Shown here in pieces: positions 10,241 through 49,644 of a DNA stretch of 64,000 nucleotides. Source of the DNA: a virus. A program made the translations under genes and the position numbers. The DNA is taken from IMG/VR virus record IMGVR_UViG_3300046171_000208, positions 37,694-101,693 of that record; one strand, 5' to 3'. Position 1 is the first letter of the stretch; each line of letters opens with the position of its first letter. Below the pieces are notes generated by a model. That model made no database searches. It was not told the origin of the DNA and was given only the letters and a program-made list of their open reading frames with translations.

Positions 10241-10252
10241 GATAAAAAAAAA

Positions 10253-13269: not shown

Positions 13270-13423
13270 CAGAGTAAAAAGATTAGTTAAAATGCTTGAA
13301 AGATTAAATAAACAACCTTATCTTTATGATGAGGATCAAGTCAAATTAATTAAAGAACAACTAAAGATTGCTAAAAATGAATTAGCAATGATTGAAGAAA
13401 AAACATCAAAAGGATTTAAATGA
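13253..13423 (+). CDS. Small helical basic protein
   Basis: 56 residues, almost wholly helical and Lys rich (RVKRLVKMLERLNKQ, then VKLIKEQLKIAKNEL), with a heptad pattern suggesting a coiled coil. The start overlaps the preceding gene and the stop overlaps the oxygenase start (ATGA). It may be a small nucleic-acid-binding or regulatory protein; this is inference from charge only. Confidence 0.6.
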   Translation: MATPISRVKRLVKMLERLNKQPYLYDEDQVKLIKEQLKIAKNELAMIEEKTSKGFK

Positions 13424-13956
13424 TTGAAATTTTAGATTGTCCATTTGCCGATGAAATCAAAGGTAATTTAATTAAATGGTTTAAATTAGAAAAACAAAAT
13501 AAAGCATCTGGACTTGTTTTGAAGTCAAAGGAACATACTGAACCAGAGACTCCAGAGATTAAAAGATTATTTGAATGGATAGAGAGTGTAGTTCCTGATG
13601 TTGCTATAAAATTAGCACAAAGTTCAAATTCATTATTTAATGCTGAATATAGAAGGCATACAGCTAATTTTAAAATAGATGCATATTGGGGTCTTTATTA
13701 TAATTCAAATTCATTCGTATATCCTCACTCTCATTTTCCTCACGCACTATCTTTTGGATATTATATAAATGTTCCTGTAGGAAGTTCTCCTTTTACATTA
13801 ATGCAAAATAATAAAGAGGATATGGATTTTTATCCTAAAGAAGGAAATTTATTCATTTTTGATAGTTCTATTCAGCATGTTGTAAATCCATCTCCAGTTG
13901 CAGGTCGAATGATGCTTGCAGGAGATATTGCATACCTATCACGTTTTGGTAATTAA
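13420..13956 (+). CDS. 2OG-Fe(II) oxygenase
   Basis: 178 residues. The iron-binding part is VYPHSHFPHALSFGYY (His103, His105, His108), followed by the distal strand GNLFIFDSSIQHVVNPSP and a conserved Arg in AGRMMLAGDI that would bind 2-oxoglutarate. This is the double-stranded beta-helix order of phage 2OG-FeII_Oxy-type enzymes, here with an HxH rather than HxD motif. It hydroxylates an unknown substrate. It is coupled by ATGA to the gene before it and abuts ThyX. Confidence 0.8.
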   Translation: MIEILDCPFADEIKGNLIKWFKLEKQNKASGLVLKSKEHTEPETPEIKRLFEWIESVVPDVAIKLAQSSNSLFNAEYRRHTANFKIDAYWGLYYNSNSFVYPHSHFPHALSFGYYINVPVGSSPFTLMQNNKEDMDFYPKEGNLFIFDSSIQHVVNPSPVAGRMMLAGDIAYLSRFGN

Positions 13957-16084: not shown

Positions 16085-16105
16085 TACACATAACTTTATA
16101 ATTAT

Positions 16106-16354: not shown

Positions 16355-16358
16355 TCAA

Positions 16359-19173: not shown

Positions 19174-19212
19174 CTAATTATCCAAAATATCCAATTTATC
19201 CGAGGTATCTAA

Positions 19213-20100: not shown

Positions 20101-20118
20101 TTACAAAGTAATTGTGTA

Positions 20119-20144
20119 GGGGGTCAAACGACCCCCTTTTTTTT
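20119..20144 (+). terminator. Terminator after gene 32
   Basis: Stem GGGGGTC / GACCCCC with AAAC loop and eight Ts. It stands between convergent gene 32 and the minus-strand baseplate genes; on the minus strand no T run follows the stem. Confidence 0.9.
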
Positions 20145-34815: not shown

Positions 34816-36334
34816 TGTTTCAGAAACAACAGCAACTAAATTATTCTTATTTGCACAACCAACTCTAACACTACCACCAGCACATATTGCTCAAGGTTTC
34901 AGAATTGGTGCAAGGTCTGACGATAAATTATACATTGATAATGGAGGAAGCACATTCTCTGCTACAGTTGTAATGCCAAATGGTGCATCAGGAACTACAA
35001 ATGTTGGTGAGAAGAATTACGAAGCAATACATTCAGATGCAAGTGCATCAACTAAGTCAGTATTTACAATTAACGCAGGTCACGAACTCGCAAACGGTGA
35101 ATCAATCAGAGTTATTGCTGATAATGGTGACTTACCAGAGAATTTAGATCCTCATACAGTATACTTTGCAATCACAAGCACTCAAGATTCTGCTCTTGGT
35201 GCAAATCAAATTCGTATTGCATCATCAAAAACAAACGCTGATTTAGCAGTTCCTGTTTTTGTTGCAACAGTTGCAAGTGTAACTGATAAGTTTAGAATTA
35301 TAAGTAGAGTATCAGATAAGAAACCAAATGATGCTGGACATCCGATTCAATATGATGCGAGTGCAGGTCAATGGTTTGTTCATACTTTAGCTTCAGGTAA
35401 TACTATTCATAATGGTTCATCAATATATGCAAACGCAACAGATGATGACATTACATATGTTCTTAGAAAGGATGATGACAGAAGTTTAGATGAGAAGATA
35501 TACAAATTAAGATATGTTGTTCCAAAAGAATTAACAAATGGTAGAGATCCAACAGATGGATTTGTTCTACAAGATTCAAGTTCAACTAATGTTCTAGCAA
35601 ATACTGACTTTAGTAAGACAACAATTACTGCAAACGATTATGCTTTTGATCGTAATACACGATTCATATCTCAAGCAAGTTTTGATAGCACAGAGAACTT
35701 AATTAAAATTCGTTCAGACAAACCACATAATTTAGGTGTTGGTGATCAAGTTGTTGTTAAAAATGTCCAGAGTACAACAAACTCAACTGCTCTTGAGAAT
35801 AAAGGATACAATGGAACATTCTTGGTTGCTGAAATTACAAATGATAAGGAGTTTAGATATTCTAATGTAGATACTTCAGGTGTAACTCATACAACTGGAA
35901 CATTTACTAACAATACTCAAACTCGTTCAACATTATTACCACGATTTGATCGTAATAATAATAGTGGTAACTTCTTTGTATACAGAACTGAAACTATTAC
36001 ACCTTATATTCAGGGAGTTCAAGATGGTGTGCATCATCTATTCGTATTGAATAGTAACAATGCGATGAATGAACCATCGAATGAATTTGTTGAGAACAAG
36101 TATAATCAGAATATTGTTAACTTATTCCCAGAATATGATCGTGATAATGTAGATGCTAACCCACCAGCAGCGGTATCTTATGCAAAAAGATTCCCAATTG
36201 GTGAAGTTATAACCAACGATTTAAAGAAAAGTATTACCAGAGAAACAACAAACCAGTTCTTAAAGAATTTTGATGGTTCAATTGGTATTACTTCAGTTGT
36301 TAATAATAGTACAAACTGCTGTTATCAATCTTGA
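34796..36334 (+). CDS. Giant virion structural protein, part 2 of 4
   Basis: Continuation in the +1 frame: QIDVSETTATKLFLFAQPTL follows directly on QQIEFL of part 1 if one A is removed. The segment is beta-rich with repeats of the type HNLGVGDQVVVKNV and HELANGESIRVI, suggesting short beta-sandwich modules. It reaches LLPRFDRNNNSGNFFVYRTE and ends at 36334. The frame changes again near 36308-36320. No independent start codon or ribosome site precedes this part. Confidence 0.65.
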   Translation: MNFLQIDVSETTATKLFLFAQPTLTLPPAHIAQGFRIGARSDDKLYIDNGGSTFSATVVMPNGASGTTNVGEKNYEAIHSDASASTKSVFTINAGHELANGESIRVIADNGDLPENLDPHTVYFAITSTQDSALGANQIRIASSKTNADLAVPVFVATVASVTDKFRIISRVSDKKPNDAGHPIQYDASAGQWFVHTLASGNTIHNGSSIYANATDDDITYVLRKDDDRSLDEKIYKLRYVVPKELTNGRDPTDGFVLQDSSSTNVLANTDFSKTTITANDYAFDRNTRFISQASFDSTENLIKIRSDKPHNLGVGDQVVVKNVQSTTNSTALENKGYNGTFLVAEITNDKEFRYSNVDTSGVTHTTGTFTNNTQTRSTLLPRFDRNNNSGNFFVYRTETITPYIQGVQDGVHHLFVLNSNNAMNEPSNEFVENKYNQNIVNLFPEYDRDNVDANPPAAVSYAKRFPIGEVITNDLKKSITRETTNQFLKNFDGSIGITSVVNNSTNCCYQS

Positions 36335-38747
36335 TGAAGAACATAGTTTTGATTCACTTAAGTATCACGCTACTTTAAATGGTGGTTCAGGTCATACTGA
36401 CGGAACATATTATAATGTAAGATTATTGAATACTAACGCAACTCCTGCGACTGCACCTTGGGATGGTGCGACTGCAAAGGTTGTTGTATCAAGTAATGCT
36501 GTAACTTCAGTCGAGATTACTGACGGTGGTTCTGCATATACAAATGGTGAAACATTATTCTTTGACGCACAAACTCCTGCTTTAGGTGGTATTGGTGGTT
36601 CACCAAATGCAAATCTTACAATTGCAACTGCTGGTATTTCATCAGCAACTGGTAATTATATTCAAGTCACTGGTATTACAACTGGAACTGATTCTTATCA
36701 TCGTATTTCAAGTATTAACAGCACAAAGCAAATTACTGTTGCTAAATCTGCTGCTGATACTTTACTTGATGGACAACAGATTCATGATATGGGTCCTTGG
36801 GTAGCAGTTGGATCTGCATCCACAACATCAGGAACTACTACATTTACTACTACTGTAGACCACGGACTTGCAGTTGGTAATAAATTTAGGATTCTTAATA
36901 GCAGTGATACAAACCTTGGAGATTTTGTTGTTACATCAGTTGTTGGTATTACACAATTTGCTGCTAAAACAACAACTTCACTTGCAGACGCAAAATACAT
37001 TCTGAAACACGGTTTATCAGATAATGAATCAATTTCAGGAGTTGCTGGAGAGAACATAGATGTAAGAGGATTTAATATATTCGACCACGAAACACTGATT
37101 CTAAATGAAGCAGTCGGAACTGGTGATTCTGCATTTAAAGTTAAACTTCCTGATGGAACAACAACTGCAACATCAATCGTCAATCGTTTCCCACTTGGTT
37201 CATACATTCAGATTGGTGGTGAGATTATGCGTATCGCATCAAGCTCACTTTCTGGTGGAGGTGGAGATGAGATAACTGTTATTCGTGGTTCACTTGGAAC
37301 AAATACAGCAACCCATCTTATTAATTCAAGAATCAAGAAAGTTAAACCACTACCGATTGAACTTCGTAGACCTTCAATATTAAGGTCATCAGGACATACA
37401 TTTGAATACGTTGGTTTTGGTCCAGGTAACTATTCAACTGCATTACCACAGTTACAGAATAGATCACTTACTGAAAGAGAGGAGTTCTTAAATCAAGCAC
37501 AAGAAACATCTTGCGGTAACGTAGTTTACACAGGTATGAATGATAAAGGTGACTTCTATATTGGAAACACCAAGATTGCATCTGCGAGTGGACAACAAAC
37601 TACATTTGATATTCCAGTTGCAACTGTTACTGGTGAAGATCCAAATCGTTTAAGTGCTGTATTTGATGAAGTAGTTGTTAAAGAGAGACTACTTGTTGAA
37701 GGTGGTGCATCGAAACAGATTCTATCACAGTTTGATGGTCCTGTCACATTCAACAGTGACTTAAGACTATCAGATAGTACAAAGCAACTTATTACTGAAG
37801 CAGAAATTCGTGCTCAAGATGCTAAATTTAGAGATACCACTAACTCAACTGCTGTAACTAATGGTTCAGTTGTTATTGATGGTGGTATGGGTATTGCTAA
37901 AGATATTGTTATCGGTGGTAATATAGTTGGTGATACTGCATCAACCCTATCTGGATTTAATAATGTTACCGCAACAAACTTCATTGGTGATGGTGCTCAA
38001 TTAACAAATACTGGTGCTCAATTATCAGCAACATCAGGAACACAAAGGGTTGTTCTCACAAGTCTAACCAGTGGAACTATGACATCTGCTTCAACAGATG
38101 GTGATTTAACATTTAATCCAACTGGTAATGTATTAAGTTGCGTTACCTTTAGTGGTGGATTAGCTGGTAATGCAGATACAGCAACATTAACATCCCACGT
38201 TGTTGGAACTGCTAATAGAGTTTTATTTAACAATAACACTAATACAACCACAACATCTGCTGCATTAACATTTGATGGAACTCAACTTAATGTAACCAAT
38301 AACATAAGGGCAAACAACCTTACACTTGGATTGACTGCTGGTACTACAATCAACACTACAACTGGTGATTTAGTTCTAGATTCATCAAACAACAAAGTTC
38401 ATATGACTGCTAACGCAGAAGTTGATGGAACATTAACTGTTGATAGTAGCACTAACGCATCAAGTAAAGATACAGGTGCATTGATTATTACTGCTGGTGG
38501 ACTTGGAGTTGAAGGTAACATTCACTCTGGTGGAGATATAGTTGCGTTCAGTTCATCTGATATGACACTTAAAGAAGACATATCACCTATTGAAGATGCA
38601 CTTGGATTGATAAACTCATTGAGTGGAAACACATTTGCTTGGAAACCAGAAGCAGGTATCTTTGGTAACTCTGGTATGGATACTGGTATTATTGCTCAAG
38701 AAGTTGAAGCACTTAATCTTACCTGGTCTTTCCAAGAGAAGAGGTGA
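36270..38747 (+). CDS. Giant virion structural protein, part 3 of 4
   Basis: Continues as TAVINLDEEHSFDSLKYH after removal of one base. It contains HGLAVGNKFRIL, GSYIQIGGEIMRIASS and IELRRPSILRSSGHTFEYVG, then a fibre-like region of thin repeats. The end is the start of an S74 intramolecular chaperone domain: SSSDMTLKEDISPIEDALGL and GIIAQEVEALNL. The frame breaks again near 38712-38724, inside that domain. Confidence 0.65.
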   Translation: MMVQLVLLQLLIIVQTAVINLDEEHSFDSLKYHATLNGGSGHTDGTYYNVRLLNTNATPATAPWDGATAKVVVSSNAVTSVEITDGGSAYTNGETLFFDAQTPALGGIGGSPNANLTIATAGISSATGNYIQVTGITTGTDSYHRISSINSTKQITVAKSAADTLLDGQQIHDMGPWVAVGSASTTSGTTTFTTTVDHGLAVGNKFRILNSSDTNLGDFVVTSVVGITQFAAKTTTSLADAKYILKHGLSDNESISGVAGENIDVRGFNIFDHETLILNEAVGTGDSAFKVKLPDGTTTATSIVNRFPLGSYIQIGGEIMRIASSSLSGGGGDEITVIRGSLGTNTATHLINSRIKKVKPLPIELRRPSILRSSGHTFEYVGFGPGNYSTALPQLQNRSLTEREEFLNQAQETSCGNVVYTGMNDKGDFYIGNTKIASASGQQTTFDIPVATVTGEDPNRLSAVFDEVVVKERLLVEGGASKQILSQFDGPVTFNSDLRLSDSTKQLITEAEIRAQDAKFRDTTNSTAVTNGSVVIDGGMGIAKDIVIGGNIVGDTASTLSGFNNVTATNFIGDGAQLTNTGAQLSATSGTQRVVLTSLTSGTMTSASTDGDLTFNPTGNVLSCVTFSGGLAGNADTATLTSHVVGTANRVLFNNNTNTTTTSAALTFDGTQLNVTNNIRANNLTLGLTAGTTINTTTGDLVLDSSNNKVHMTANAEVDGTLTVDSSTNASSKDTGALIITAGGLGVEGNIHSGGDIVAFSSSDMTLKEDISPIEDALGLINSLSGNTFAWKPEAGIFGNSGMDTGIIAQEVEALNLTWSFQEKR

Positions 38748-38862: not shown

Positions 38863-40956
38863 ATGGCAAATATCAAGAAGAATTTTAATTTTCGTAACGG
38901 TGTACAGGTAGATGATGACAACCTGTTGGTAACTGATACTGGTCTGGTGGGTATCGGGACCACCATACCAAATGAGTCTCTTGATGTCAGAGGTAATGTG
39001 ATTGTTACTGGATTTACCAGCACAACCACCGCACAAATTGGTATATTAACAGTAACAACATTTGTACCAAATCAGATTACTGGTGCAGGACTTAGTGTTT
39101 TTAGTGGAATAGTTACAGCACAAGGTGCAGGTATATTAACGTACTTTGGTGATGCTAGAAATCTACAGGGGATGCCAACTTCTCAATGGGAAGATAAGGA
39201 TGTAGGTTTAGGATTCACAAGTATATACAACACAGGAGGCAATGTGGGTGTGGGGACCGAAGATCCCCGTTCGACCTTCCAAGTTGGTAACAATGCTGAT
39301 GCTGGAGAGAAAGGTGTAGGTATCAGTTCAGTCGGAAATATCAATATGACTGGTATTGTTACAGCATCAAGTTTTGTTGGTAATGTAACAGGTGATGTTA
39401 CAGGAAGAATTACTGGTGATGTAGTAGGAAATATCAATTCAGCAGGTGTATCTACAGCAGTTACACTAGATGTAAATGGAGATTTAGATGTAGATGGACA
39501 TGCAAATATTGACAATTTAAGTGTTGCTGGTGTATCAACATTCACAGGACTTATTGATGGTAATGGTGGTGCAAATATTGATAATGTTCAGATTGGAGTT
39601 ACGGGTGATAATGAAATTGATACATCTACTGGTAATCTAACGATTGATTCTGCTGGTGGAACAGTTACAGTTGACGACCAGTTTGCAGTCACAGGTCTTT
39701 CTACATTCACAGGTGCGATTGATGCAAATGGTGGAGCAACTATTGACAATGTGCAAATCGGTGTCACAGGTAATAATGAAATTGATACTTCAACAGGAAA
39801 TCTAACAATTGACTCTGCTGGTGGTACAATCACAGTTGATGATAATTTAGGAGTTACAGGTACATCAACCTTTAGTGATGATGTTGGAGTTGTTGGATTG
39901 ACAACTACTAAAACTTTATTAGTTACAGGTATAACAACATTAACAGGAAATGTTAATGCATCATATGTTGGAGCATCATCAACATCGTTCGCTACAAAAC
40001 TTGGTGTAGGAACAACTGAAGCTCCAGTAAATGATATTCAGGTAAGAAAATCAGGTGATGCAGAAATTCAGGTGACAAGTGAAACTGGATCTGCTGGACT
40101 TACAGTTGGTAGAGAAACAGGTAATGTAGATACAAACAATGCAGAGTTTAGATATGGTGAAGTATCAGCTGGAGTTCCTTATAGTTCTGCACAGTCACTT
40201 GATATACTAAACTATGGTACAGGTAATTTTAATTATCATATAAGTGCAAATAATGCAGGTGCAGTTGATGGTGATTTCCATTGGCATAGAGGTAAGAACT
40301 CTATTCGATTGATGACACTCACTGGTATCGGTGGTTCACTTGGTATTGGTAATACTCAACCCACTAAAGCATTAGATGTAACTGGAGCTGGTAATTTTAG
40401 TGGTGATATATTTGTTGGCAATAATGTTAATGTAACTGGAACTGTTATTGGTAATGTTCAAGGTTCATTGACAGGAAACGTTGCTGGAACTCTTGCTGGT
40501 AATGCAAATGCAACTGTTGGTATATCAACATTAAATAACCTCACTATTGCAGGTGTTGCGACATTTATAAATGCGGTTGAAACAGCACTAATAGGAATTG
40601 GAACAACTGCTCAAAATCATCCAGTTCAAATTAATGATACAGCTGCAAATCGTATTATTGTAACAAATAATGGTCAAATTTCAATCAAGTCTACTGACAT
40701 ATTAGACGATACAGATATTAATGCTGTAAATGCTTCTGTTTGTTTTGGAGGAGTAGGTGTTGGTGCAACTATCTTGAAATCAGCGGTTGACTTTGCTGAT
40801 GCAGGAACAGCAACAACTAGATTTATGTTACCTCCAAAAATTACTACAACTCAAAGAGGTAATCTATCTGGTGTTGTTGCAGGTGCAGTAATATACAACA
40901 CATCTACTAATAAATTACAGGTCTTTAATGGGTCTGCTTGGCAAGATTGTAACTAA
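38863..40956 (+). CDS. Tail fibre protein with tandem repeats
   Basis: 697 residues. It starts ANIKKNFNFRNGVQVDDDNLL, a common cyanophage fibre N-terminus. The middle contains a DLDVDGHANIDNLSVAGVST unit and two 41-residue repeats (DNA at 39556 and 39721). The C-terminus ends QVFNGSAWQDCN, a widespread fibre ending. It overlaps the adhesin gene by one base. It probably forms a shaft to which the Gly-rich protein attaches. Confidence 0.75.
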   Translation: MANIKKNFNFRNGVQVDDDNLLVTDTGLVGIGTTIPNESLDVRGNVIVTGFTSTTTAQIGILTVTTFVPNQITGAGLSVFSGIVTAQGAGILTYFGDARNLQGMPTSQWEDKDVGLGFTSIYNTGGNVGVGTEDPRSTFQVGNNADAGEKGVGISSVGNINMTGIVTASSFVGNVTGDVTGRITGDVVGNINSAGVSTAVTLDVNGDLDVDGHANIDNLSVAGVSTFTGLIDGNGGANIDNVQIGVTGDNEIDTSTGNLTIDSAGGTVTVDDQFAVTGLSTFTGAIDANGGATIDNVQIGVTGNNEIDTSTGNLTIDSAGGTITVDDNLGVTGTSTFSDDVGVVGLTTTKTLLVTGITTLTGNVNASYVGASSTSFATKLGVGTTEAPVNDIQVRKSGDAEIQVTSETGSAGLTVGRETGNVDTNNAEFRYGEVSAGVPYSSAQSLDILNYGTGNFNYHISANNAGAVDGDFHWHRGKNSIRLMTLTGIGGSLGIGNTQPTKALDVTGAGNFSGDIFVGNNVNVTGTVIGNVQGSLTGNVAGTLAGNANATVGISTLNNLTIAGVATFINAVETALIGIGTTAQNHPVQINDTAANRIIVTNNGQISIKSTDILDDTDINAVNASVCFGGVGVGATILKSAVDFADAGTATTRFMLPPKITTTQRGNLSGVVAGAVIYNTSTNKLQVFNGSAWQDCN
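39556..39678 (+). repeat. 41-codon fibre repeat, copy 1
   Basis: Encodes NIDNVQIGVTGDNEIDTSTG and following residues. It is paired with 39721-39843 at a spacing of 165 bp. Proteins differ at four positions only, DNA at many synonymous sites. Confidence 0.8.
39721..39843 (+). repeat. 41-codon fibre repeat, copy 2
   Basis: Second copy, with the protein almost identical to copy 1 but third codon positions much diverged. Confidence 0.8.
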
Positions 40957-41957
40957 TGACTATTAAATCTTCTGGAAGTTCACTATCATTTTCTGAAATA
41001 GAAACCGAGTTCGGTGCAAACGGATCTAGATCGTTAGGTGGTTATCGTACTACACAAAGTGTAGGTTCATTATCAAATTTACCTTTAGATGGTGGTATTC
41101 CAACATCAGGACAGATAAAATTTAGTGATTTTTATAGTAAACAATTAAATGTAGTTGTTAATTGTCATAGTGGTAGTAGGGAAGATAGAAAGAGTGCAAA
41201 GAATGATAAGTGGAATAATAATGATGTTACTGTTATTGGTGGATTCCGAAGTAAAAAAGAGAGTGGTAGTAAAATTATAATCAATGTAAATAAAAAATTC
41301 TGTTCAAATAAAGATCAACAGAACAGATGTGCATTAAGAACTGGGAGTTGGGATGGTTCTGCAACAGTTCAAGTTGATATAGGTGGTAGTGCACAAATTC
41401 TTGGTGCTGGAGGAGATGGTGGTAAGGGTGCTGACGGTATTAATAATAATGGTAATGCTGGTGGCGATGGAACAAGTGGATTAGGTATTGAACAGAATAA
41501 TGTAACAGTTAATATTGCAAGTGGTGCAATTCTCCGTGCTGGTTTTGGTGGTGGAGGAGGTGGCGGTGGAGGTCGCCAACAAGATAAAAGAAGAGATAGA
41601 AGAGCTGGCGGTGGAGGCGGTGGCGGTGGCATGGGCTGCCCTGCAGGTAATGGTGGACAAGGTGGATCTACTGGGGGAGGATTTGGATCTGGTAGTGGAC
41701 AACCTGGTGGAGCAGGTACTGAAACCTCTGGTGGAGGTGGCGGTGGCGGTGGTAATAACTCTGGACAAGCAGGTGGTTCATCTGGAGGTTCAGGTGGTCA
41801 AGCATCTGGAAACGCTGGAGCAGGTGGTAATAACAACACATCAGGAGGATCTGGTGGAGGAAATGGGGCTGCCATTAGACGAATTTCAGGTTATAATGTT
41901 ACAATAAATAATAGTGGTTCAATTACAGGTAGCACATCTGCTACTGGTGTAACTTAA
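40956..41957 (+). CDS. Glycine-rich adhesin, gp38-like candidate
   Basis: 333 residues. The N-terminus (LSFSEIETEFGANGSRSLGGY, here from residue 10, core SEIETEFG) is a common cyanophage attachment motif. Residues about 145-310 are dominated by Gly runs of 6-9 residues separated by short linkers, as in the polyglycine-II sandwich of T-even gp38 adhesins, whose linker loops contact the receptor. It directly follows a fibre gene (TAATG). A receptor-binding role is inferred. It contains KDKRRDRRAG-like basic linkers and few cysteines. Confidence 0.65.
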   Translation: MTIKSSGSSLSFSEIETEFGANGSRSLGGYRTTQSVGSLSNLPLDGGIPTSGQIKFSDFYSKQLNVVVNCHSGSREDRKSAKNDKWNNNDVTVIGGFRSKKESGSKIIINVNKKFCSNKDQQNRCALRTGSWDGSATVQVDIGGSAQILGAGGDGGKGADGINNNGNAGGDGTSGLGIEQNNVTVNIASGAILRAGFGGGGGGGGGRQQDKRRDRRAGGGGGGGGMGCPAGNGGQGGSTGGGFGSGSGQPGGAGTETSGGGGGGGGNNSGQAGGSSGGSGGQASGNAGAGGNNNTSGGSGGGNGAAIRRISGYNVTINNSGSITGSTSATGVT

Positions 41958-41976: not shown

Positions 41977-42549
41977 ATGACAACTGAATTTGACTTGATA
42001 AGAAGGTATAGAGGTGCTTTCTCAAAAGATGAATGTGAAAAGTTTATAGAATTTATTGATGAATTTGATAAGCATAATATATTAGTACATGATACAGAAA
42101 ATCTACATCAGGTAAATCATAAGACTGCAAATGTATCTTTTAGTTATGATTTCCCTTCATATAGTCAATTAGCAGATGATATAATACCTAAATTTAAACC
42201 TTGTATTGATGAATATCTAGAAGCAGTAAGTATATTAAAAGATTTTAAATTTTTAATCTATGATTTGAAAGTCAAGAAGATACCAATTTGTGGTGGGTTT
42301 CACTCTTGGCATTTTGAAAATGGTTCAATACCCTATAGTCAAAGAAAATTTGTTCTACAACTTTATTTAAATGATGATTTTGAGGGTGGTGAAACTGAAT
42401 TTTTATACCAGAATCGTAGAGAATTAGCAAAACAAGGTGATGTTTTGATTTTTCCCGCAGGATTCACACATACGCATCGTGGTAATCCACCGATAGGAGG
42501 AACAAAATATTTAATTACATCATGGGCAATGGTGCAAGATAATGACTAG
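41977..42549 (+). CDS. 2OG-Fe(II) oxygenase (prolyl-4-hydroxylase-like)
   Basis: 190 residues. Iron-binding HxE at residues 112-114 in FHSWHFENG, then RKFVLQLYLNDDFEGGETEF, the typical P4H strand, then GDVLIFPAGFTHTHRG with the distal His, and a Lys in GTKYLITSW for 2-oxoglutarate. The HxE form replaces the usual HxD. First of a series of such genes directly after the adhesin. Substrate unknown. Confidence 0.85.
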   Translation: MTTEFDLIRRYRGAFSKDECEKFIEFIDEFDKHNILVHDTENLHQVNHKTANVSFSYDFPSYSQLADDIIPKFKPCIDEYLEAVSILKDFKFLIYDLKVKKIPICGGFHSWHFENGSIPYSQRKFVLQLYLNDDFEGGETEFLYQNRRELAKQGDVLIFPAGFTHTHRGNPPIGGTKYLITSWAMVQDND

Positions 42550-43249
42550 ACAAATATTTAATATCTTCCCAACCACAATTTATGTCAGCGAGATTCCTAA
42601 CCATAAAAAATATAAAGATACTTTTTATAAATTATATCCCAAGTATGATTATGAACAAGTAACTTATCAAGATGGTGAAGAGTGGTTTAATACTACAAGT
42701 GAAAATACAGGAAATCCATTTATTCATCTAGATAATGAACTCGAAGAATTGTTTGAAAATATTATATCAGAGACAAAAATTTATGTACACGAAGTTTTAA
42801 AATACAAAGATATTTTTGATTATATAATTACTAAAAGCTGGATTTCTCGTTCAAGAGCATATCACGAAACTATTAAATGGCACACTCATTCAACAAGTCA
42901 TATTTCGTTTTCTTATTATTTAAATACACCACCTAATTCTCACGTTTTAAAATTTGCGAATACAAATAATCTAAATGGATTATTTGATGGATTGAATACA
43001 AGTGATATTAAAGATGGTGTTCGAGAAAGCAATGAACTTAATGCTTCGAGTTTTTATATAAATCCAGAGGAAGGTTCTTTAATTTTATTTCCAAGTGCTA
43101 TGGAACATTGTACTGCAACTCACTCAAATGATTTTGAAGGTGAGAGATTGGCAATAGTTGGTGATATAACACTTGTGTATAAGGAGGATGGTGATAATGA
43201 TTATTCAATGGGTTTTGTAAATCCAAAATATTGGAGGACATACAAATGA
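42542..43249 (+). CDS. 2OG-Fe(II) oxygenase (Oxy_5-like)
   Basis: 235 residues, overlapping the previous gene by 8 bp. The core is WHTHSTSHISFSYYLNTP with HxH, followed by EEGSLILFPSAMEHCTATHS and GERLAIVGDI holding the distal His and the Arg. The N-terminus IFPTTIYVSEI is the usual start of this family in marine phages. It ends in an ATGA overlap with a small conserved gene. Confidence 0.85.
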   Translation: MTRQIFNIFPTTIYVSEIPNHKKYKDTFYKLYPKYDYEQVTYQDGEEWFNTTSENTGNPFIHLDNELEELFENIISETKIYVHEVLKYKDIFDYIITKSWISRSRAYHETIKWHTHSTSHISFSYYLNTPPNSHVLKFANTNNLNGLFDGLNTSDIKDGVRESNELNASSFYINPEEGSLILFPSAMEHCTATHSNDFEGERLAIVGDITLVYKEDGDNDYSMGFVNPKYWRTYK

Positions 43250-43590
43250 AGGTGATTGTTAAAATTGAAGAGTACTTACCTGATACTCAACAGATTGTTA
43301 TAAAAATATGCAGATTACACTCACACAAACCTATAGATGATCATAGAACTTTTGCAATCGAAATATATGATTTAGATATGACTGATAATGAATCTTTTAT
43401 TGATAGTTTAGTTTTTAAAGTAAAACATTTACTTCAAGAACAAGAAGAGAATGAACCTATACTAGATGAAAACACACCCATCGAGATTGGTGGTGAACTT
43501 GATATTGAAAATTTATTAGGAAAGAATATTGAGGGTAAAATCTGGTACAGGGGAACTAGATTACTAAAAATGAGGAGAGTGGAATTATGA
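43246..43590 (+). CDS. Conserved small cyanophage protein
   Basis: 114 residues from the ATG overlapping the previous stop. KVIVKIEEYLPDTQQIVIKI and CRLHSHKPIDDHRT, later ELDIENLLGKNIEGKIWYRG, form a pattern I recognise as conserved in T4-like cyanophages. It lacks catalytic residues and ends with ATGA overlap to the next gene. Function unknown. Confidence 0.65.
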   Translation: MKVIVKIEEYLPDTQQIVIKICRLHSHKPIDDHRTFAIEIYDLDMTDNESFIDSLVFKVKHLLQEQEENEPILDENTPIEIGGELDIENLLGKNIEGKIWYRGTRLLKMRRVEL

Positions 43591-44054
43591 GACATTTTTT
43601 TAAAAAGTGTGAAGAATTTACTTTATGTGGTGGTGTAGGGGATGGTGATGGGTTATTTACACATGGTTATCCAGATAACTATGCGATATATCACATAATT
43701 ATTAAAGGAAATGTAAGAATGGCAAGACCATTTGAAACAGAGTATATTTCTCTAGATGCAGATGGAAATAATTTTGTAAATGTTAAAGATTATCTTTTTT
43801 CAAAAAGATATTACACATCATCAACTCCATATCATATGTTTGGATTCAACGCACTTACACCAAGTCAAGATTGGGATGGTAAATTGGTGAAAGAATCTTT
43901 TGATGGTGATAATAAAAGTTGGTTGATTTGTTTTAGTGGTAAACCTATCATCAATGGTGTTATAGTAAAACCACTAGATTATGCTAAACTAGATAACAAA
44001 CACTATGAAGTTACACTCAATGATGCAATCATTGGGGTTTTTACTAAATTATGA
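43587..44054 (+). CDS. Possible cupin-like protein
   Basis: 155 residues. Alternating hydrophobic strands (NYAIYHIIIKGNVRMARPF; LICFSGKPIINGVIV; KHYEVTLNDAIIGVF) suggest a beta-barrel of cupin type, but the metal-binding His set is not evident. It is tightly embedded in the oxygenase operon by ATGA overlaps on both sides. It could be a partner or a degenerate relative of the neighbouring oxygenases; low certainty. Confidence 0.5.
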   Translation: MRHFFKKCEEFTLCGGVGDGDGLFTHGYPDNYAIYHIIIKGNVRMARPFETEYISLDADGNNFVNVKDYLFSKRYYTSSTPYHMFGFNALTPSQDWDGKLVKESFDGDNKSWLICFSGKPIINGVIVKPLDYAKLDNKHYEVTLNDAIIGVFTKL

Positions 44055-44536
44055 TTACAAAGGAACAATTAACAAAACTATATCATTGGGGTAATAGAAC
44101 AACATTTCCATTAAGAAAGGAAGGTATTACTTCAAAATATATGAGATACGATGTTTTTATTTCTTATGTTAAATATGGTAAGAATGAAAAAAGATATAGA
44201 AAGAAATTATTTGATGATAATATTTACGAAATTATAAAAAATGATGAGATTTATGGTGTTGCATATCTAAAATATTCAGCACACGTTGATGCAAAACCAC
44301 ATAAGGATTTTAATTTATGGGGTAAAGATTTCTTAAGAATACAAATACCTCTGAAGATGCCACAGGGAAATAAATGTTACATTGAGTTTATTGAAACAGG
44401 GGAAAGATTTTATTGGCAAAAGGGAAAAGTAGAGATATTTAATGTAGAAAAATTGCATCAAGGTAAGAATGATTCTGATCAAACAATGGAGTTTTTATAT
44501 GTTGACATCAATCCTGATACAGAAGTTGAATTATGA
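44051..44536 (+). CDS. Aspartyl/asparaginyl beta-hydroxylase-like enzyme
   Basis: 161 residues. It follows the Asp/Asn beta-hydroxylase order: KPHKDFNLWGKDFLRIQIPL (HxD), then GERFYWQKGKVEIFNVEKLHQGKNDS with the distal His. The family uses 2-oxoglutarate, oxygen and Fe(II) to hydroxylate side chains. The N-terminal 50 residues are basic. Coupled to both neighbours by ATGA overlaps, so the enzymes are made together. Confidence 0.75.
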   Translation: MITKEQLTKLYHWGNRTTFPLRKEGITSKYMRYDVFISYVKYGKNEKRYRKKLFDDNIYEIIKNDEIYGVAYLKYSAHVDAKPHKDFNLWGKDFLRIQIPLKMPQGNKCYIEFIETGERFYWQKGKVEIFNVEKLHQGKNDSDQTMEFLYVDINPDTEVEL

Positions 44537-45102
44537 ATGATAGTGAAATCATTGTGATTGATAATATAATTGACCTAGATTATCAAGAACAAATAAAGGG
44601 TATATTATTAGGAGATATTAATTACAAAGACTATGAGTTTCCGTGGTATTATACGAAAGATGTAACCAAATCAGATTCTCCCAATAGTCAGAAAAGACCC
44701 GCATTTACACACGGATATGTTAAATTATCAGGTCAAGTAATAAGTGAGTTTCACGATATATTTTTAAATCTTATTAAGGTTTGTTGTCATAGATTACAAA
44801 TCACAGAGGTTGATGTAATTCAAGGTCGTTCATTTTTACAATTACCTTTAAGTCAAAAAACAAATGTTGATACACCACATATAGACACAGATGATAAACA
44901 TTTTGTGATGTTGTACTATGTTTTGGATAGTGATGGAGATACAATTATATACAATGAGAAGGTTGAGAGTAAAGAATATACAGTAAATAAAAGTATTACA
45001 CCAAAGCAAGGTCGTGTGGTGTTATTTGATGGTGGTTTATATCATACAGCAGAGCAACCGACAAAGGATACAAGATGTGTTGTGAACTATAATTTAGTGT
45101 GA
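44533..45102 (+). CDS. 2OG-Fe(II) oxygenase
   Basis: 189 residues. TPHIDTDDKHFVMLYYVLDSDGD gives HxD, followed by QGRVVLFDGGLYHTAEQPT with the distal His and Arg in DTRCVVNYN. Related in layout to the gene at 46726. It ends the first oxygenase transcript: a sigma70 promoter follows. Confidence 0.85.
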   Translation: MNDSEIIVIDNIIDLDYQEQIKGILLGDINYKDYEFPWYYTKDVTKSDSPNSQKRPAFTHGYVKLSGQVISEFHDIFLNLIKVCCHRLQITEVDVIQGRSFLQLPLSQKTNVDTPHIDTDDKHFVMLYYVLDSDGDTIIYNEKVESKEYTVNKSITPKQGRVVLFDGGLYHTAEQPTKDTRCVVNYNLV

Positions 45103-45117
45103 TAATAAAAAAGTTCC

Positions 45118-45146
45118 TTGCACAAGGGGTATTTTTATGCTATAAT
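45118..45146 (+). promoter_or_regulatory. Sigma70 promoter, near-leaderless
   Basis: TTGCAC, 17 bp, TGC-TATAAT, ending 8 bp before the methyltransferase ATG at 45155. Confidence 0.7.
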
Positions 45147-45154
45147 AAAGACAA

Positions 45155-45928
45155 ATGAATGAAACAATGAAATTATATAATGATGATATGTTTGATGTGT
45201 TTTCTAATATCAAACCCCAAAGTGTTGATTTATTATTGACAGATTTTCCGTATGGAACATTGAACAAAAAGCGTAATGAGTGGGATAAGATTATTGATTA
45301 TGATAAATTCTGGTATTATGTTGATATTATATGTAAACCTAATTGTGCAATTGTAAGCACAGCAGCTCAACCATTTACATCTGTACTCATATCCACTAAC
45401 TATGCTAATTTTAAATATTGTTTAGTGTGGGAGAAATCAAAGTCAACTGGTTATCTCAATGCGAAGAAACAACCTATGAGGTCACACGAAGACATAGTTG
45501 TATTTTATAAGAAACAACCAACATATAATCCACAAATGACAGTAGGCAAACCTTACGATAAGGGTAAAGCAGTTCGTGATGCAATTCAGTATGGAAAGCA
45601 AACTAAAGCAGTTCACGTTAAAAATACCGAAGGTACAAGATACCCAAGAAGTGTTTTATATTTTAAAACAGCAGAAGATGAGGGTAAACTACATCCAACA
45701 CAAAAACCAATAGCACTATATGAGTATTTGGTAAAAACTTATTCAAATGAGGGAGATACAATTCTTGACCCTTGCATGGGGTCAGGAACTACTGGTATTG
45801 CTTGTCTGAATACCGACAGAGAATTTATTGGTATTGAGAGGGATGAGAATTATTATACCATAGCAGAGAAAAGATTAAAGACAATGACACAAGAGGAATC
45901 CAATCCACTAACAGAGTTGCTATACTAA
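45155..45928 (+). CDS. DNA (N4/N6) methyltransferase, variant DFPY motif
   Basis: 257 residues. The catalytic motif is TDFPYG (residues 29-34), a variant of DPPY with Phe for the first Pro. SAM motif I lies at the end in TILDPCMGSGTTG, so this is a beta-class order. HPTQKP before motif I is typical of the family. It may protect phage DNA or mark host DNA. No adjacent nuclease. The mRNA has almost no leader. Confidence 0.85.
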   Translation: MNETMKLYNDDMFDVFSNIKPQSVDLLLTDFPYGTLNKKRNEWDKIIDYDKFWYYVDIICKPNCAIVSTAAQPFTSVLISTNYANFKYCLVWEKSKSTGYLNAKKQPMRSHEDIVVFYKKQPTYNPQMTVGKPYDKGKAVRDAIQYGKQTKAVHVKNTEGTRYPRSVLYFKTAEDEGKLHPTQKPIALYEYLVKTYSNEGDTILDPCMGSGTTGIACLNTDREFIGIERDENYYTIAEKRLKTMTQEESNPLTELLY

Positions 45929-45970
45929 TAATATCTAATGATGAAAAATATTGGAAAAAATATGATTAAT

Positions 45971-45998
45971 TTGCAAATTTTTTGATATATGCTATAAT
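45971..45998 (+). promoter_or_regulatory. Sigma70 promoter, leaderless
   Basis: TTGCAA, 16 bp, TGC-TATAAT. The ATG at 46005 is 6 bp downstream, at the predicted start of transcription. Confidence 0.75.
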
Positions 45999-46004
45999 TA
46001 CATT

Positions 46005-46745
46005 ATGAAAAATAATGAGACACCTGTAGGATGGTCAGTATGTATGTCTGATGATTCTTTTTTGGACAACTTATCAGACATACCTAAAAAAATCAACTCA
46101 AGAAAATTTGTGAGTGGAGGAATATTATATTGCCCTGCATTTGGAGGGTTTTATGATAATGTATTTGCTATTAAAATGCCAACTACAGTTATTTTTAGCA
46201 AAGTAAATGGTACGTTGAGTGTGGATTCATCTCCAAATTTAGAACCCAAAGCAAAATATGAGTCATTTTTTAGCATTGAACAAGATGAAAATGGATTTTC
46301 AATTCAAGTAATTTTGAATAATATTTTTGTTAGTGATAAACCATACACCACTATTGAGACATTACCACCAATATTACATAGAGTTAGAAATGATATAATT
46401 TATCTTAATGGTAGATTTGATTGTCACGCTTGGCAAAGACCAGTTCATTTTGGATTTAGAATTACAAAAGAAGTATTCGATGAAATGAAACCAAATGATA
46501 AAATTATTTTTAATCAAGATGAAGTTGTAATGTATGTTAGACTCAATACTCCTGATAATAGTGAAGTAAAACTATATCAATTAAGTCCAGATGATGAAAA
46601 AGATTTAATGAAGTATGTGAACAGAAATGTAAATCTTATAAGTTATGTCAGTTTGATGGACTTCAGAACAATATGGAATAGAGTTAGAAATCGCAGACCA
46701 AACAAATTTTTGAGAGATTTAAATTATGGTAGTAAAAGTAATTGA
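46005..46745 (+). CDS. Unknown protein in oxygenase island
   Basis: 246 residues with no family I can name. Features include CPAFGGFYDNVFAIKMPTTV, then IIYLNGRFDCHAWQRPVHFG and IIFNQDEVVMYVRLN. Beta-rich N-terminus, helical C-terminus with FRTIWNRVRNRRPNKFL. It is coupled to the following oxygenase by overlap (46726), so it might act on or present its substrate. It has a leaderless promoter of its own. Confidence 0.6.
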   Translation: MKNNETPVGWSVCMSDDSFLDNLSDIPKKINSRKFVSGGILYCPAFGGFYDNVFAIKMPTTVIFSKVNGTLSVDSSPNLEPKAKYESFFSIEQDENGFSIQVILNNIFVSDKPYTTIETLPPILHRVRNDIIYLNGRFDCHAWQRPVHFGFRITKEVFDEMKPNDKIIFNQDEVVMYVRLNTPDNSEVKLYQLSPDDEKDLMKYVNRNVNLISYVSLMDFRTIWNRVRNRRPNKFLRDLNYGSKSN

Positions 46746-47247
46746 TGATGTAGTCAGTAAAGGTTATCAAAATCTTATCGAGAATACTATTTGCTCCCCT
46801 AATTTTAATTGGAGTTATATTACAGGACTCACTTTTAATGATGATTCTAATACGGGATTTGTTAATAAAATTTTTAGTTCAGAGCATCAATTTAGAACAC
46901 CAGAAACTGATTTATTGATACCACTATTGTATGAAGCAATAGACAAATATGAAAAAGGATTAGTAGTTAAAGACTTATACCGTATTATTGCAAGAATGAA
47001 TTTAAAAGGTCAAAATAAATCTAAACATCTTCCTCATATTGATGTTGAATTTCCTCATTATACAATGGTTTATTACGTTAATAATAGTGATTTGGGAACT
47101 AACATTCATGAAGGAGATAAAATTATTCAAAATGTAGAACATAAAAAAGGGAGAGCAGTTATAATGTCTGGAGATATTTTACACTCATCATCTACCCCAA
47201 AAAAATCTCTTAATAGGGTAGTATTAAATTTTAATTTTATGATATGA
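46726..47247 (+). CDS. 2OG-Fe(II) oxygenase
   Basis: 173 residues. KHLPHIDVEFPHYTMVYYVN gives HxD; KKGRAVIMSGDILHSSSTPK has the distal His, and Arg in LNRVVLNFNF. The same subfamily as the product of 44533. Overlaps both neighbours. Substrate unknown. Confidence 0.85.
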   Translation: MVVKVIDDVVSKGYQNLIENTICSPNFNWSYITGLTFNDDSNTGFVNKIFSSEHQFRTPETDLLIPLLYEAIDKYEKGLVVKDLYRIIARMNLKGQNKSKHLPHIDVEFPHYTMVYYVNNSDLGTNIHEGDKIIQNVEHKKGRAVIMSGDILHSSSTPKKSLNRVVLNFNFMI

Positions 47248-47843
47248 CCCTACAAGAATTTAATCCAAGTTGGTACTTTCGATCTAGATTGAGTGATGAA
47301 GATATACAAAAAGTAAAAAATATTTTCGTATCATTTATAGATGATGATAATAATTTTCATAATCCACCACAATGGGGAGCAAATGTAAAAAGTTCTTTTT
47401 ATCATCCAAATAACGATAATCCTAAATGGGATTCTTTTTTAGAAATTTTAAAACCATTTACTGATGAATTTATTAGTATAATGAAACCTAAAATGCCAGT
47501 AGAAGTATTTGCACAAGAAGGATGGGTCAATAAGTATTCGTGGCAATATTTTCAAGAATATCATACACATGCATCCCCAGACATTAATTTAAGTATGATA
47601 TATTTTTACAAGGTAAAAAAGGATGATGAGTGTTTTAAATTTGTAACTGATCATTCATTGTATTCATCAAATGGATATAATAAGATGTTTCAAATTCCAA
47701 ATAGACCAGTAACAGTTCCAAAGGTGAATAGCGGTGATGTGATTTATTTTCCATCATTTTACCCTCACTTTGTCACTCCACATTTCTTAAAAGGATTTGA
47801 AAGAGTGACTTTTAGCACTAATTTTTTAATTGTGCCAGTTTAG
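47244..47843 (+). CDS. 2OG-Fe(II) oxygenase (Oxy_5-like)
   Basis: 199 residues. EYHTHASPDINLSMIYFY gives HxH, followed by SGDVIYFPSFYPHFVTPHF with distal His residues and Arg in FERVTFSTNF. N-terminal half helical with WGANVKSSFYHP. ATGA overlap with the previous gene. The stop is followed by the dyad promoter at 47834. Confidence 0.85.
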   Translation: MTLQEFNPSWYFRSRLSDEDIQKVKNIFVSFIDDDNNFHNPPQWGANVKSSFYHPNNDNPKWDSFLEILKPFTDEFISIMKPKMPVEVFAQEGWVNKYSWQYFQEYHTHASPDINLSMIYFYKVKKDDECFKFVTDHSLYSSNGYNKMFQIPNRPVTVPKVNSGDVIYFPSFYPHFVTPHFLKGFERVTFSTNFLIVPV

Positions 47844-47887
47844 AAAGTGTCTAATATGATTACAATTGTATTTTCATATGCTATAAT
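47834..47887 (+). promoter_or_regulatory. Dyad-type early promoter (offset by 2 bp)
   Basis: Dyad GCCA-N10-TGTC (47834-47851), then TTACAA and TATAAT (47882-47887). Same dyad as in seven further promoters between 50983 and 61532, but 2 bp closer to the -10 box. Drives the helicase gene. Confidence 0.65.
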
Positions 47888-47908
47888 AAAGACATCTAAA
47901 GAACACTA

Positions 47909-49084
47909 ATGCAATTAAGACCTCATCAAGAGCAAGCAATCCAATCAATGTTGGACAATGACAAAGGACAAATCATTGTTCCTACTGGTGGTGGTAAGAC
48001 TATCTGTATGATTATGGATGCTGTCAAGCAGTTGGAAACCTATGGCACGATTGTTGTAGTTGCACCACGCATATTACTTGCAGAGCAACTATCTCACGAA
48101 TTTATGGAAATCATTGATGAGAAGTATAATGATGTAGAAGTAATGCACGTTCATAGTGGTAAAGTCAAAGGTGTATTCAGCAGCACTAATCCATTTCAGA
48201 TACAACAGTTTGTAGAGTCAAACTTGGGTGGTAGAAGAATTATATTTACAACTTATCATTCATTACATAGAGTTGAAGAGTCAGGTATCAATGTTGACAC
48301 TATCTACTTTGATGAAGCACATAATTCAGTTCAGAGAAACTTCTTCCCTGCTACTGATTACTTCTCAATACACGCACAAAGATGTTACTTCTTTACAGCA
48401 ACACCAAAGCATAGTCGTTCTGTAAAACCAGGTATGAATTGGACAGAGGTATATGGTGGTGTTATATGTCAAATACCTGCACCAAAGTTAGTCAAGCAAG
48501 GTTATATTTTACCACCTAAAGTTAAGGTGTATCGTTCAAGAATACTCAAGAAAGATGAGTTAGTTGCAGACAGAGATAATGAGCAAATGATTGGTGCTAT
48601 AGATAATCTTGACAAGGACAAAGTATTAATTTGTGCCAAGTCAACGAGACAAATTGTAAGTCTAATATCACAGACAGATTTTGTACATCAACTTGCAATT
48701 CGTGGTTACTCTTATATGTTTATCACAGCAAAGACAGGTGCTATGATTGATGGAGAGAAGGTCGATAGAGAGACTTTCTTTAATACTCTTAATGAGTGGG
48801 GTAGAAACGGAAAGAAGTTTGTTGTACTTCATCACAGCATACTTTCAGAGGGTATCAATGTCAATGGACTTGAAGCAGTATTGTTTATGCGTTCTATGGA
48901 TTACATAGGTATTAGTCAGACTATTGGTAGGGTTATTCGTAAGGGTAATGCTGACAAAGTATTCGGACTTGTATGTGTACCAGTTTACTCTAATGTTGGT
49001 ATTACTACCGCAAGAAAGGTTGAAGCAGTAGTCGATACTATCTTCAACAAAGGTCAAGCAGCTACAACAGTTATCACAAGATGA
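47909..49084 (+). CDS. Superfamily 2 DEAH helicase
   Basis: 391 residues. Q-like start LRPHQEQAI, Walker A in VPTGGGKT, Walker B DEAH, motif III FFTATPK, and motif VI QTIGRVIRKG. Similar to UvsW/type-III-restriction-type helicases but shorter than T4 UvsW. Possible roles: fork remodelling, recombination, or work with the nearby methyltransferases. It overlaps the oxygenase at 49081 by 4 bp. Confidence 0.88.
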   Translation: MQLRPHQEQAIQSMLDNDKGQIIVPTGGGKTICMIMDAVKQLETYGTIVVVAPRILLAEQLSHEFMEIIDEKYNDVEVMHVHSGKVKGVFSSTNPFQIQQFVESNLGGRRIIFTTYHSLHRVEESGINVDTIYFDEAHNSVQRNFFPATDYFSIHAQRCYFFTATPKHSRSVKPGMNWTEVYGGVICQIPAPKLVKQGYILPPKVKVYRSRILKKDELVADRDNEQMIGAIDNLDKDKVLICAKSTRQIVSLISQTDFVHQLAIRGYSYMFITAKTGAMIDGEKVDRETFFNTLNEWGRNGKKFVVLHHSILSEGINVNGLEAVLFMRSMDYIGISQTIGRVIRKGNADKVFGLVCVPVYSNVGITTARKVEAVVDTIFNKGQAATTVITR

Positions 49085-49644
49085 TTAACATACCATTTTC
49101 ATCTGATTTTTTTACACTTTTCCCTGCACCTAACGCAGAGGAATTAATATCCTCTATTGAAGAGATATGTAAAACTAAAAAAGTGGATAATGATTTTCGT
49201 GATTGGGGTAAGACTTGTAGAGTTGATACAATACCATTAATATGGCAAGACTTCCTTGACTTATATCAACCTAGTATTAAAGTTTTTTGTCATTTATTCA
49301 AAAAAGATATAAAATACACAATGTATAACCCTTGGCTTAATTTATATAAAAAGGGTTATTATCAAGAAATTCATGACCACGCAGGTCATGATATATCAAG
49401 TGTTTTCTTTGTAAATACTGGTGTTGATTTTGGTAAATTCTTTTTTTATGATAGACATTCTTGTAATTTTTCAGATAATTATGAGGATTTTATTTCATAC
49501 GAAAATCAGAAAAGACCACCTATAAAAAGAGGAGATATTATGTTTTTCTCTAGTCATCTCTTACATGGAGTGACTTCTCACGAAAATGATGAGATAAGAA
49601 AAACTCTCTCTGTAAATTTTAACATTGATGAGGTAGTAAAATGA
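49081..49644 (+). CDS. 2OG-Fe(II) oxygenase (Oxy_5-like)
   Basis: 187 residues. YYQEIHDHAGHDISSVFFVN gives the HxH pattern, then KRGDIMFFSSHLLHGVTSHE with the distal His and Arg in IRKTLSVNF. N-terminus IPFSSDFFTLFPAPN. Overlaps both the helicase and the nucleotidylyltransferase, so it is in the same transcript. Confidence 0.85.
   Translation: MINIPFSSDFFTLFPAPNAEELISSIEEICKTKKVDNDFRDWGKTCRVDTIPLIWQDFLDLYQPSIKVFCHLFKKDIKYTMYNPWLNLYKKGYYQEIHDHAGHDISSVFFVNTGVDFGKFFFYDRHSCNFSDNYEDFISYENQKRPPIKRGDIMFFSSHLLHGVTSHENDEIRKTLSVNFNIDEVVK

Follow-up and report, generated by a model that had tools for sequence, protein, structure and literature searches.

Linkage of a prolyl-hydroxylase-like oxygenase to a Gly-rich adhesin suggests chemical finishing of host-binding proteins in marine T4-like phages

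In an uncultured marine phage, a predicted 2OG-Fe(II) oxygenase of the prolyl hydroxylase type is encoded directly behind a Gly-rich adhesin, with its start 19 bp past the end of the adhesin gene. The same adjacency is found again and again among relatives, and this suggests that such phages modify their host-gripping part chemically as a finishing step. The source phage belongs to the P-SSM2-like cyanomyoviruses; a megablast search with 17.7 kb taken from the window, i.e. the whole stretch of 64,000 nucleotides analysed here (positions 37,694 to 101,693 of IMG/VR record IMGVR_UViG_3300046171_000208), placed it no finer than that. Genes are named by their first base in the window. From published accounts, many divergent 2OG oxygenases per cyanophage genome are already known, with 24 in S-SCSM1 (PMC3037559, PMC9602691, PMC9146016), and thus the cluster by itself is not new. 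As far as their accessible text goes, these accounts treat the genes as auxiliary metabolic, DNA-repair or 2OG-level genes and do not discuss a linkage to adhesins or fibres, which is the novelty here. No paper proposing adhesin or fibre hydroxylation was found in the open-access literature, where searches on phage fibre hydroxylation gave nothing relevant. We know of no routine modification of fibres by hydroxylation in tailed phages.

The sequence-only reading had counted seven oxygenase-type genes between 41977 and 49644 and an eighth at 13420. All eight open reading frames were recovered at these coordinates and Pfam and PHROG concur (Table 1); the metal motif classes HxE, HxH and HxD were as it had assigned them and the distal His was likewise confirmed. 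Five of the eight proteins lie above the Pfam gathering cut-offs and three (44533, 46726 and 13420) just under, the latter being firmly placed in PHROGs. 44051 scored 30.2 bits against PF05118 (4.9e-7; cut-off 22.6), while 13420 reached 24.0 bits against PF13759 (cut-off 27), for which the other three proteins of this type are above the cut-off. The label 'DNA endonuclease V' carried by members of phrog_274 was rejected as a function, as the proteins match PF13640. BLASTP among the eight showed clear kinship only for 44533/46726 (25%) and 47244/49081 (31%), and this low mutual identity bears out the earlier view that they are not recent duplicates. Their clustering exceeds chance. The same families are found in other cyanophage repertoires (PHROG 61, 81 and 274), and in S-SCSM1 clusters of 2OG oxygenases alternate with tail fibre genes behind the helicase that also occurs here.

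Table 1. Predicted genes of the oxygenase island, the preceding adhesin and the eighth oxygenase (positions in the window).
Feature	Coordinates	Strand	Evidence
Gly-rich adhesin / tail-fibre tip protein, 333 aa	40956..41957	+	phrog_11439 tail fiber protein 2e-9; family alignment
P4H-like 2OG-Fe(II) oxygenase (HFE 112-114, H167, K177)	41977..42549	+	PF13640 5e-9; profile, fold, adjacency
PF13759-type oxygenase, HxH..H..R (H114, H116, H189, R202)	42542..43249	+	PF13759 9e-14; invariant residues
~115-aa protein, no assigned function	43246..43590	+	sequence
~155-aa protein, no assigned function	43587..44054	+	no Pfam match
Asp/Asn (Asp/Arg) hydroxylase-like 2OG oxygenase	44051..44536	+	PF05118; phrog_25655 2e-23
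2OG-Fe(II) oxygenase, HID, phrog_274 type	44533..45102	+	phrog_274 5e-35; PF13640 3e-5
DNA methyltransferase, opens swappable cassette	45155..45928	+	phrog_67 6e-69
Cassette protein, no assigned function	46005..46745	+	phrog_17480 3e-6
2OG-Fe(II) oxygenase, HID, phrog_274 type	46726..47247	+	phrog_274 9e-38; PF13640 2e-3
PF13759-type oxygenase, HTH	47244..47843	+	PF13759 2e-7; invariant HxH..H..R
DNA helicase closing variable region	47909..49084	+	phrog_16 2e-68
PF13759-type oxygenase, HDH, separate helicase-linked unit	49081..49644	+	PF13759 6e-11
Eighth oxygenase, PF13759-type, HSH	13420..13956	+	phrog_81 5e-17; PF13759 5e-5

Both profile and AlphaFold/Foldseek comparisons group 41977 with the protein prolyl hydroxylases (PBCV-1 vCPH, Bacillus P4H, PHD2). 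phmmer with the single sequence against the PDB gave weak matches (LH3, 0.008). The kinship was resolved by a profile of the 41977 family, which matched Bacillus P4H (3ITQ and 5HV0, each 5e-11), PBCV-1 (5C5T, 7e-8) and also LH3. The AlphaFold model (pLDDT 88.2) has the double-stranded beta-helix fold; its top 50 Foldseek matches were all prolyl hydroxylases (best 3e-10), and nucleic-acid oxygenase families were absent from these 50 and from the Pfam hits of 41977. Among 68 sequences, the iron ligands H112 and H167 are invariant, as is K177, which stands 10 residues beyond H167 at a position that fits the Lys/Arg of the 2OG carboxylate. The acidic ligand at position 114 is Glu in 63 of the 68, not the usual Asp. 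The enzyme thus shares the triad and the 2OG-binding Lys with vCPH and Bacillus anthracis P4H, its best fold matches. It differs from them in HxE instead of HxD, in an identity of 15-20%, in a substrate that we infer and in being encoded by a tailed phage beside an adhesin and not a collagen-like protein. Pseudomonas PPHD with EF-Tu (4IW3) and human PHD2 belong to the same fold class (TM ~0.7); these act on single protein prolines (EF-Tu and HIF, respectively) and have no linked substrate gene, whereas 41977 has a putative one.

The adhesin 40956, the proposed substrate of 41977, consists of a conserved N-terminal domain (~aa 1-150) followed by a Gly-rich distal half, as seen in the family alignment. 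Such a layout is reminiscent of the gp38-type adhesins of T4-like phages, small Gly-rich tip proteins with a conserved N-terminus and a variable Gly-rich distal part. To our knowledge, hydroxylation of gp38 has not been described. When the N-terminus of 40956 was sought among cultured phages, it was found only in one single-cell virus. In the Gly-rich half, Pro229 within GMGCPAG (bases 41640-41642) occupies an alignment column that is 89% conserved. A rule that the oxygenase needs this GxGxP proline was ruled out because motif and enzyme presence do not match: five adhesins without an adjacent oxygenase still keep the proline (L139, L170, L173, L181, L182), and four lack the motif although the oxygenase is retained (L045, L049, L050, L052).

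Linkage in uncultured relatives was followed from both genes. Starting from the best 80 of 371 adhesin matches, obtained with a query that was partly built from adhesins found beside the oxygenase and covers one subfamily, the next gene matched PF13640 in 46/52 non-redundant contigs. The second gene after the adhesin was a 2OG oxygenase in at least 28/50 loci of the same best 80 (PF13640 in 28/50 and PF13759 in 22/50, the two sets overlapping). Other genes on these contigs gave a background of 4/59 for PF13640 and 3/59 for PF13759. Starting from the oxygenase, most of 33 orthologues (at least 46% identity) directly follow a Gly-rich adhesin with 22-29% Gly and gaps of mostly 18-53 bp. Orthologues off this pattern lie in another fibre module (L031, L035, L037), one gene beyond the adhesin (L053, L057), after a 925-aa fibre-like ORF (L039) or next to replication/recombination genes (L055, L191). 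In Mantel tests, the Gly-rich half of the adhesin co-varied with the oxygenase (r = 0.65, p = 0.0002) more closely than with its own N-terminus (r = 0.44; bootstrap difference 0.09-0.33), while oxygenase and the gene upstream of the adhesin showed no significant correlation (r = 0.09); this gradient is also compatible with plain physical distance.

The linkage extends to cultured cyanophages with a different fibre. Taking the tail-assembly chaperone as starting point, an oxygenase homologue was found 34-70 bp directly upstream of it in 50/51 records, and where inspected (Syn1, S-CAM1, S-CAM3 and ACG-2014e) it follows a short tail fibre gene. The lone exception, Sf-FR1, has a different fibre and no oxygenase at the chaperone. 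Other homologues in isolates lie beside capsid, DNA replication or sugar genes, and the Gly-rich protein of P-SSM2 is followed by a different gene.

The idea of a single island with one role was not supported. The seven genes form three units whose neighbours differ from relative to relative: a block linked to the adhesin (41977-45102), a cassette that can be swapped (45155-47843) and the helicase-linked 49081. A one-pathway view was rejected on the gene arrangements in L010, L014 and L005-L015. Within the block, 42542 overlaps 41977 by 8 bp and has 3BVC/2RG4 as nearest folds. The proteins of 43246 and 43587 recur in the adhesin module, the former with or without oxygenases (L131, L139, L148, L170, L181 and others), the latter in L131, L170 and L177. 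Relatives of 44051 at 60-93% were found in five viral contigs, and 44533 is the last gene of the block retained in L010. In that contig 45155 is replaced by other genes and 46726 is missing from the site; judged by neighbours across relatives, 46726 and 47244 belong with the DNA methyltransferase cassette. The claimed interleaving with methyltransferases was loosely worded, as the island contains only one DNA methyltransferase (45155), with another (50075) beyond its end. The helicase, to which most blastn matches of the island DNA fell, is the same anchor in P-SSM2, S-SCSM1, Syn1 and S-CAM3. It is overlapped by 49081 by 4 bp, and the order helicase-49081-49641 is retained in 11/11 relatives found with it; phmmer of the single 49081 protein against the PDB was uninformative, and here too a profile gave the answer. 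The eighth oxygenase, 13420, lies between upstream fibre genes and thymidylate synthase (13957, phrog_85 2e-84). A tryptophan halogenase is also encoded in the window, and likewise in the corresponding region of relatives.

By sequence comparison, the HxH of 42542, 47244, 49081 and 13420 is an invariant signature of the PF13759 family and not as a quirk of single genes, since HxH..H..R was present in 26/26 sequences and in the structural-genomics entries 2RG4 and 3BVC, which have the same fold. Both entries are uncharacterised and therefore give no function. We know of no biochemistry on PF13759 concerning Fe(II) binding by three His or the use of 2OG.

Linkage is not proof of a substrate, because recombination can carry a neighbour along with a hypervariable adhesin. 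The oxygenases might accordingly be host-metabolism or general-purpose genes in a recombination hot spot, an explanation that we regard as rather unlikely. The interval between adhesin and helicase varies strongly in gene content (restriction-like helicase-methyltransferase, sulfotransferase, halogenase, methyltransferases) and oxygenase homologues are scattered over many further genome positions; however, in 16/79 close pairs the second gene after the adhesin switched family while the first kept its enzyme family, and in cultured phages this enzyme subfamily also goes with another, unrelated fibre type and the chaperone. Fibre proteins, surface sugars and DNA bases had all been offered as substrates by the sequence-only reading. 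For 41977, and probably 42542, linkage, co-variation and the P4H profile and fold favour a fibre or adhesin, while nothing pointed to DNA bases for 41977 and nothing to sugars.

DNA as the target, through AlkB-like repair or base modification together with methyltransferases and helicase, has been proposed for cyanophages (discussed in PMC9146016 and PMC3037559) and would suit 49081, which shares bases with the helicase gene and in relatives stands ahead of a DNA methyltransferase. We consider it improbable: the 50 best fold matches of 41977 are without exception protein prolyl hydroxylases, no AlkB, TET or JBP match came up for the eight proteins in Pfam or in the 50 best fold matches of either 41977 or 42542, and L010 keeps the adhesin-side block without the 45155 methyltransferase. 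Tuning of host metabolism (nitrogen status, NtcA) by 2-oxoglutarate consumption has been suggested for cyanophages with many such enzymes (PMC3037559), but appears very unlikely. It gives no account of several families, intact substrate-dependent active sites and the linkage to fibre genes. Moreover, uncoupled 2OG consumption is slow in 2OG oxygenases. Equally remote is a tailoring of small molecules or receptor surface glycans: the halogenase and, in S-SCSM1 and Sf-FS3, clusters of sugar genes that include 2OG genes would be in line with it, but the adhesin block has no glycosyltransferase and the predicted fold of 41977 is that of the protein-hydroxylase clade.

We therefore lean towards a reading in which P4H-clade enzymes of the 41977 type hydroxylate the adhesin or tail fibre as the phage is assembled, with 42542 probably adding a second oxidation. 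The enzyme would be made together with the adhesin and would hydroxylate it, most plausibly on a proline of the Gly-rich distal half, either ahead of tail assembly or while it proceeds; 42542 would probably oxidise that protein or a neighbouring fibre protein in a different way. Hydroxylation may stabilise or tune the host-binding tip. If the modification must match each adhesin allele, as we propose, enzyme and tip would travel together for this reason. Further oxygenases of the island are part of the other units, i.e. the methyltransferase cassette and the helicase-linked 49081. More tentatively, marine T4-like phages in general could carry dedicated hydroxylases that lie next to an adhesin or short tail fibre gene, are inherited with it and mature the fibre tip by hydroxylation, the oxygenase varying to suit the tip; we see this as possible, at not quite even chances.

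Of the gene families of marine phages that still lack an explanation, the 2OG oxygenases rank among the most frequent, and they tend to be classed as auxiliary metabolism or DNA repair. The oxygenase-chaperone pair beside the tail fibre in the cultured S-PM2, Syn1 and S-CAM1 makes the idea testable. If it is true for one large subgroup, these oxygenases would gain a concrete role in finishing host-binding proteins, which would give host recognition a chemical dimension and help to explain their number and diversity.

The source record is a 101,693-base uncultured virus, a T4-like cyanomyovirus whose nearest relatives are the Prochlorococcus phages P-SSM2 and P-SSM5. A sequence-only reading had described seven 2OG-Fe(II)-type oxygenase genes at 41977-49644 and an eighth at 13420, and this cluster was confirmed. 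All eight are real ORFs supported by PHROGs; in Pfam, five scored above the cut-off and three just below. The HxE, HxH and HxD motif classes were found as claimed, and none of the genes is a recent duplicate of another, the closest pairs sharing 31% and 25% identity. By itself, such a cluster is ordinary for cyanophages. Most cyanophages of Sullivan et al. carry one to five 2OG oxygenases, for which 2OG/NtcA effects and DNA repair were proposed (PMC3037559), S-SZBM1 carries nine (PMC9146016) and S-SCSM1 24 (PMC9602691), the genes are seasonally enriched (PMC11561400) and the PHROG 61 fold resembles human EGLN3 per Phold (PMC12774648). No proposal linking them to tail fibres was found in the mainly open-access literature covered.

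Features of the window and of related phage loci (L-numbers)
Feature	Locus	Position	Remark
Gly-rich adhesin (fibre tip)	window	40956-41957 (+)	directly upstream of oxygenase 41977
Small protein families	window	43246-43590; 43587-44054
phrog_274 members	window	44533-45102; 46726-47247
phrog_274 members	L192; L197	7170-7709; 7027-7536
Swappable cassette	window	45155-47843	begins with DNA methyltransferase
Helicase	window	47909-49084
Tryptophan halogenase	window	14588-16084	phrog_2928, 4e-145; adjoins thymidylate synthase and oxygenase 13420
Large fibre gene, overlapping ORFs	window	33115-34815; 34643-36334; 36270-38747
Tail fibre gene (5.7 kb)	L001 (P-SSM2)	14538-20264
Sulfotransferase	L002	6708-7583	Pfam-confirmed
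Sulfotransferase-like ORF	L055	4106-4951	by eye; upstream of 41977 orthologue
613-aa 'hypothetical protein'	L200 (S-CAM9)	8414-10255	directly after two 2OG genes and tail fibre

With 41977 as query, 80 relatives were retrieved. Most close orthologues (≥46% identity, L025-L057) lie directly 3' of a Gly-rich adhesin; in L031, L035, L037, L039, L053 and L057 the adhesin is not adjacent, but a fibre or adhesin gene occurs within a few genes, and L055 has neither within that distance. The reciprocal search used only the N-terminal domain of the adhesin (query A1, 12 sequences, at least 10 of them from loci found via an island oxygenase). Among its best 80 matches were 58 non-redundant adhesins, 52 with a downstream gene on the contig, and this gene matched PF13640 in 46 of the 52; a different gene follows in L139, L170, L173, L181 and L182. 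The second gene matched PF13640 in 28/50 and PF13759 in 22/50 of these best matches, the counts overlapping, compared with 4/59 and 3/59 for other genes of the same contigs.

The adhesin family is nearly absent from isolates, while oxygenase homologues are frequent there. Syn1, S-CAM1, S-CAM3 and ACG-2014e share one gene order, in which the short tail fibre is followed by a 2OG oxygenase, the tail-assembly chaperone, another 2OG oxygenase, a phrog_274-type oxygenase (labelled 'DNA endonuclease V') and two further genes, with the helicase next in Syn1 and S-CAM3. The chaperone was present in all 50 top-scoring oxygenase records. With the chaperone as query, an oxygenase lay 34-70 bp upstream in 50 of 51 records, which include many near-identical strains and represent about 15 named phages; the single exception is Sf-FR1, whose fibre protein is of another kind and whose site lacks an oxygenase. 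Other isolate homologues adjoin capsid, replication or sugar genes, and the oxygenase family overall therefore has more than one role.

The 41977 profile (68 sequences) matched the prolyl 4-hydroxylases of Bacillus (5e-11) and PBCV-1 (7e-8) as well as LH3 (2e-4). Its AlphaFold model (pLDDT 88) gave prolyl hydroxylases as all of the first 50 PDB matches; H112, H167 and K177 of the active site are invariant and E114 nearly so. Pro229 in the Gly-rich half of the adhesin is 89% conserved, and 66 of 70 family members carry a GxGxP motif. The motif and the enzyme do not co-occur one-to-one, so that proline as the target is a lead and not a conclusion.

In PF13759, H114, H116, H189 and R202 (42542 numbering) are invariant across 26 divergent sequences and have aligned counterparts in 2RG4 and 3BVC, two structural-genomics proteins; judging from these alignments, HxH characterises the family as such. 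The members 42542, 47244, 49081 and 13420 show HxH..H..R without a conserved acidic ligand, and a three-histidine iron site is therefore possible in this family filed as 2OG oxygenases. The nearest folds to the 42542 model (pLDDT 79) were 3BVC and 2RG4, then SyrB2 and other 2OG enzymes. The proteins that RefSeq cyanophage entries and PHROG 274 call 'DNA endonuclease V' match PF13640, a 2OG-Fe(II) oxygenase profile, and their name looks like a propagated misannotation. The S-CAM9 protein covers most of the phrog_61 profile at about three times the usual length.

The island consists of three units. L010 retains the adhesin through 44533 at 82-94% identity, and its cassette is swapped for a large helicase-methyltransferase protein together with a fragment resembling a methyltransferase. 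Gene 49081 immediately follows the helicase in all 11 contigs where it was found, with a nucleotidyltransferase and usually also a DNA methyltransferase downstream. L014 has two other 2OG oxygenases after the adhesin, one on the minus strand, and L002 a Gly-rich protein followed by the sulfotransferase. The adhesin-helicase interval is thus a plastic cassette site, and the L002 sulfotransferase and the sulfotransferase-like ORF of L055 hint that other tailoring enzymes share the slot. The two small protein families recur beside the adhesin with or without oxygenases (e.g. L139, L170, L181) and are candidate adhesin chaperones. Halogenases also occur around the adhesin in related contigs. The three large fibre ORFs align in order to the single P-SSM2 gene, so that the gene in the window seems to be interrupted by frameshifts, which may be sequencing errors.

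In a comparison of 37 loci, the Gly-rich half of the adhesin gave distances that correlated with those of the oxygenase (r = 0.65, p = 0.0002) more strongly than with those of the adhesin's first 150 residues (0.44; bootstrapped difference 0.09-0.33), and between the oxygenase and the gene preceding the adhesin there was no correlation (0.09, p = 0.19). Of 79 pairs of similar oxygenases, 16 are followed by genes of non-homologous families. These results identify adhesin tip and oxygenase as a travelling unit, although a similar gradient could come from physical proximity alone. Hitchhiking of the oxygenases is the main rival explanation and is considered rather unlikely. Modification of the fibre tip by the enzyme is the best explanation and is favoured by a modest degree. 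The finding that merits follow-up is the conserved pairing of an adhesin or tail fibre with an enzyme of the prolyl-hydroxylase type.
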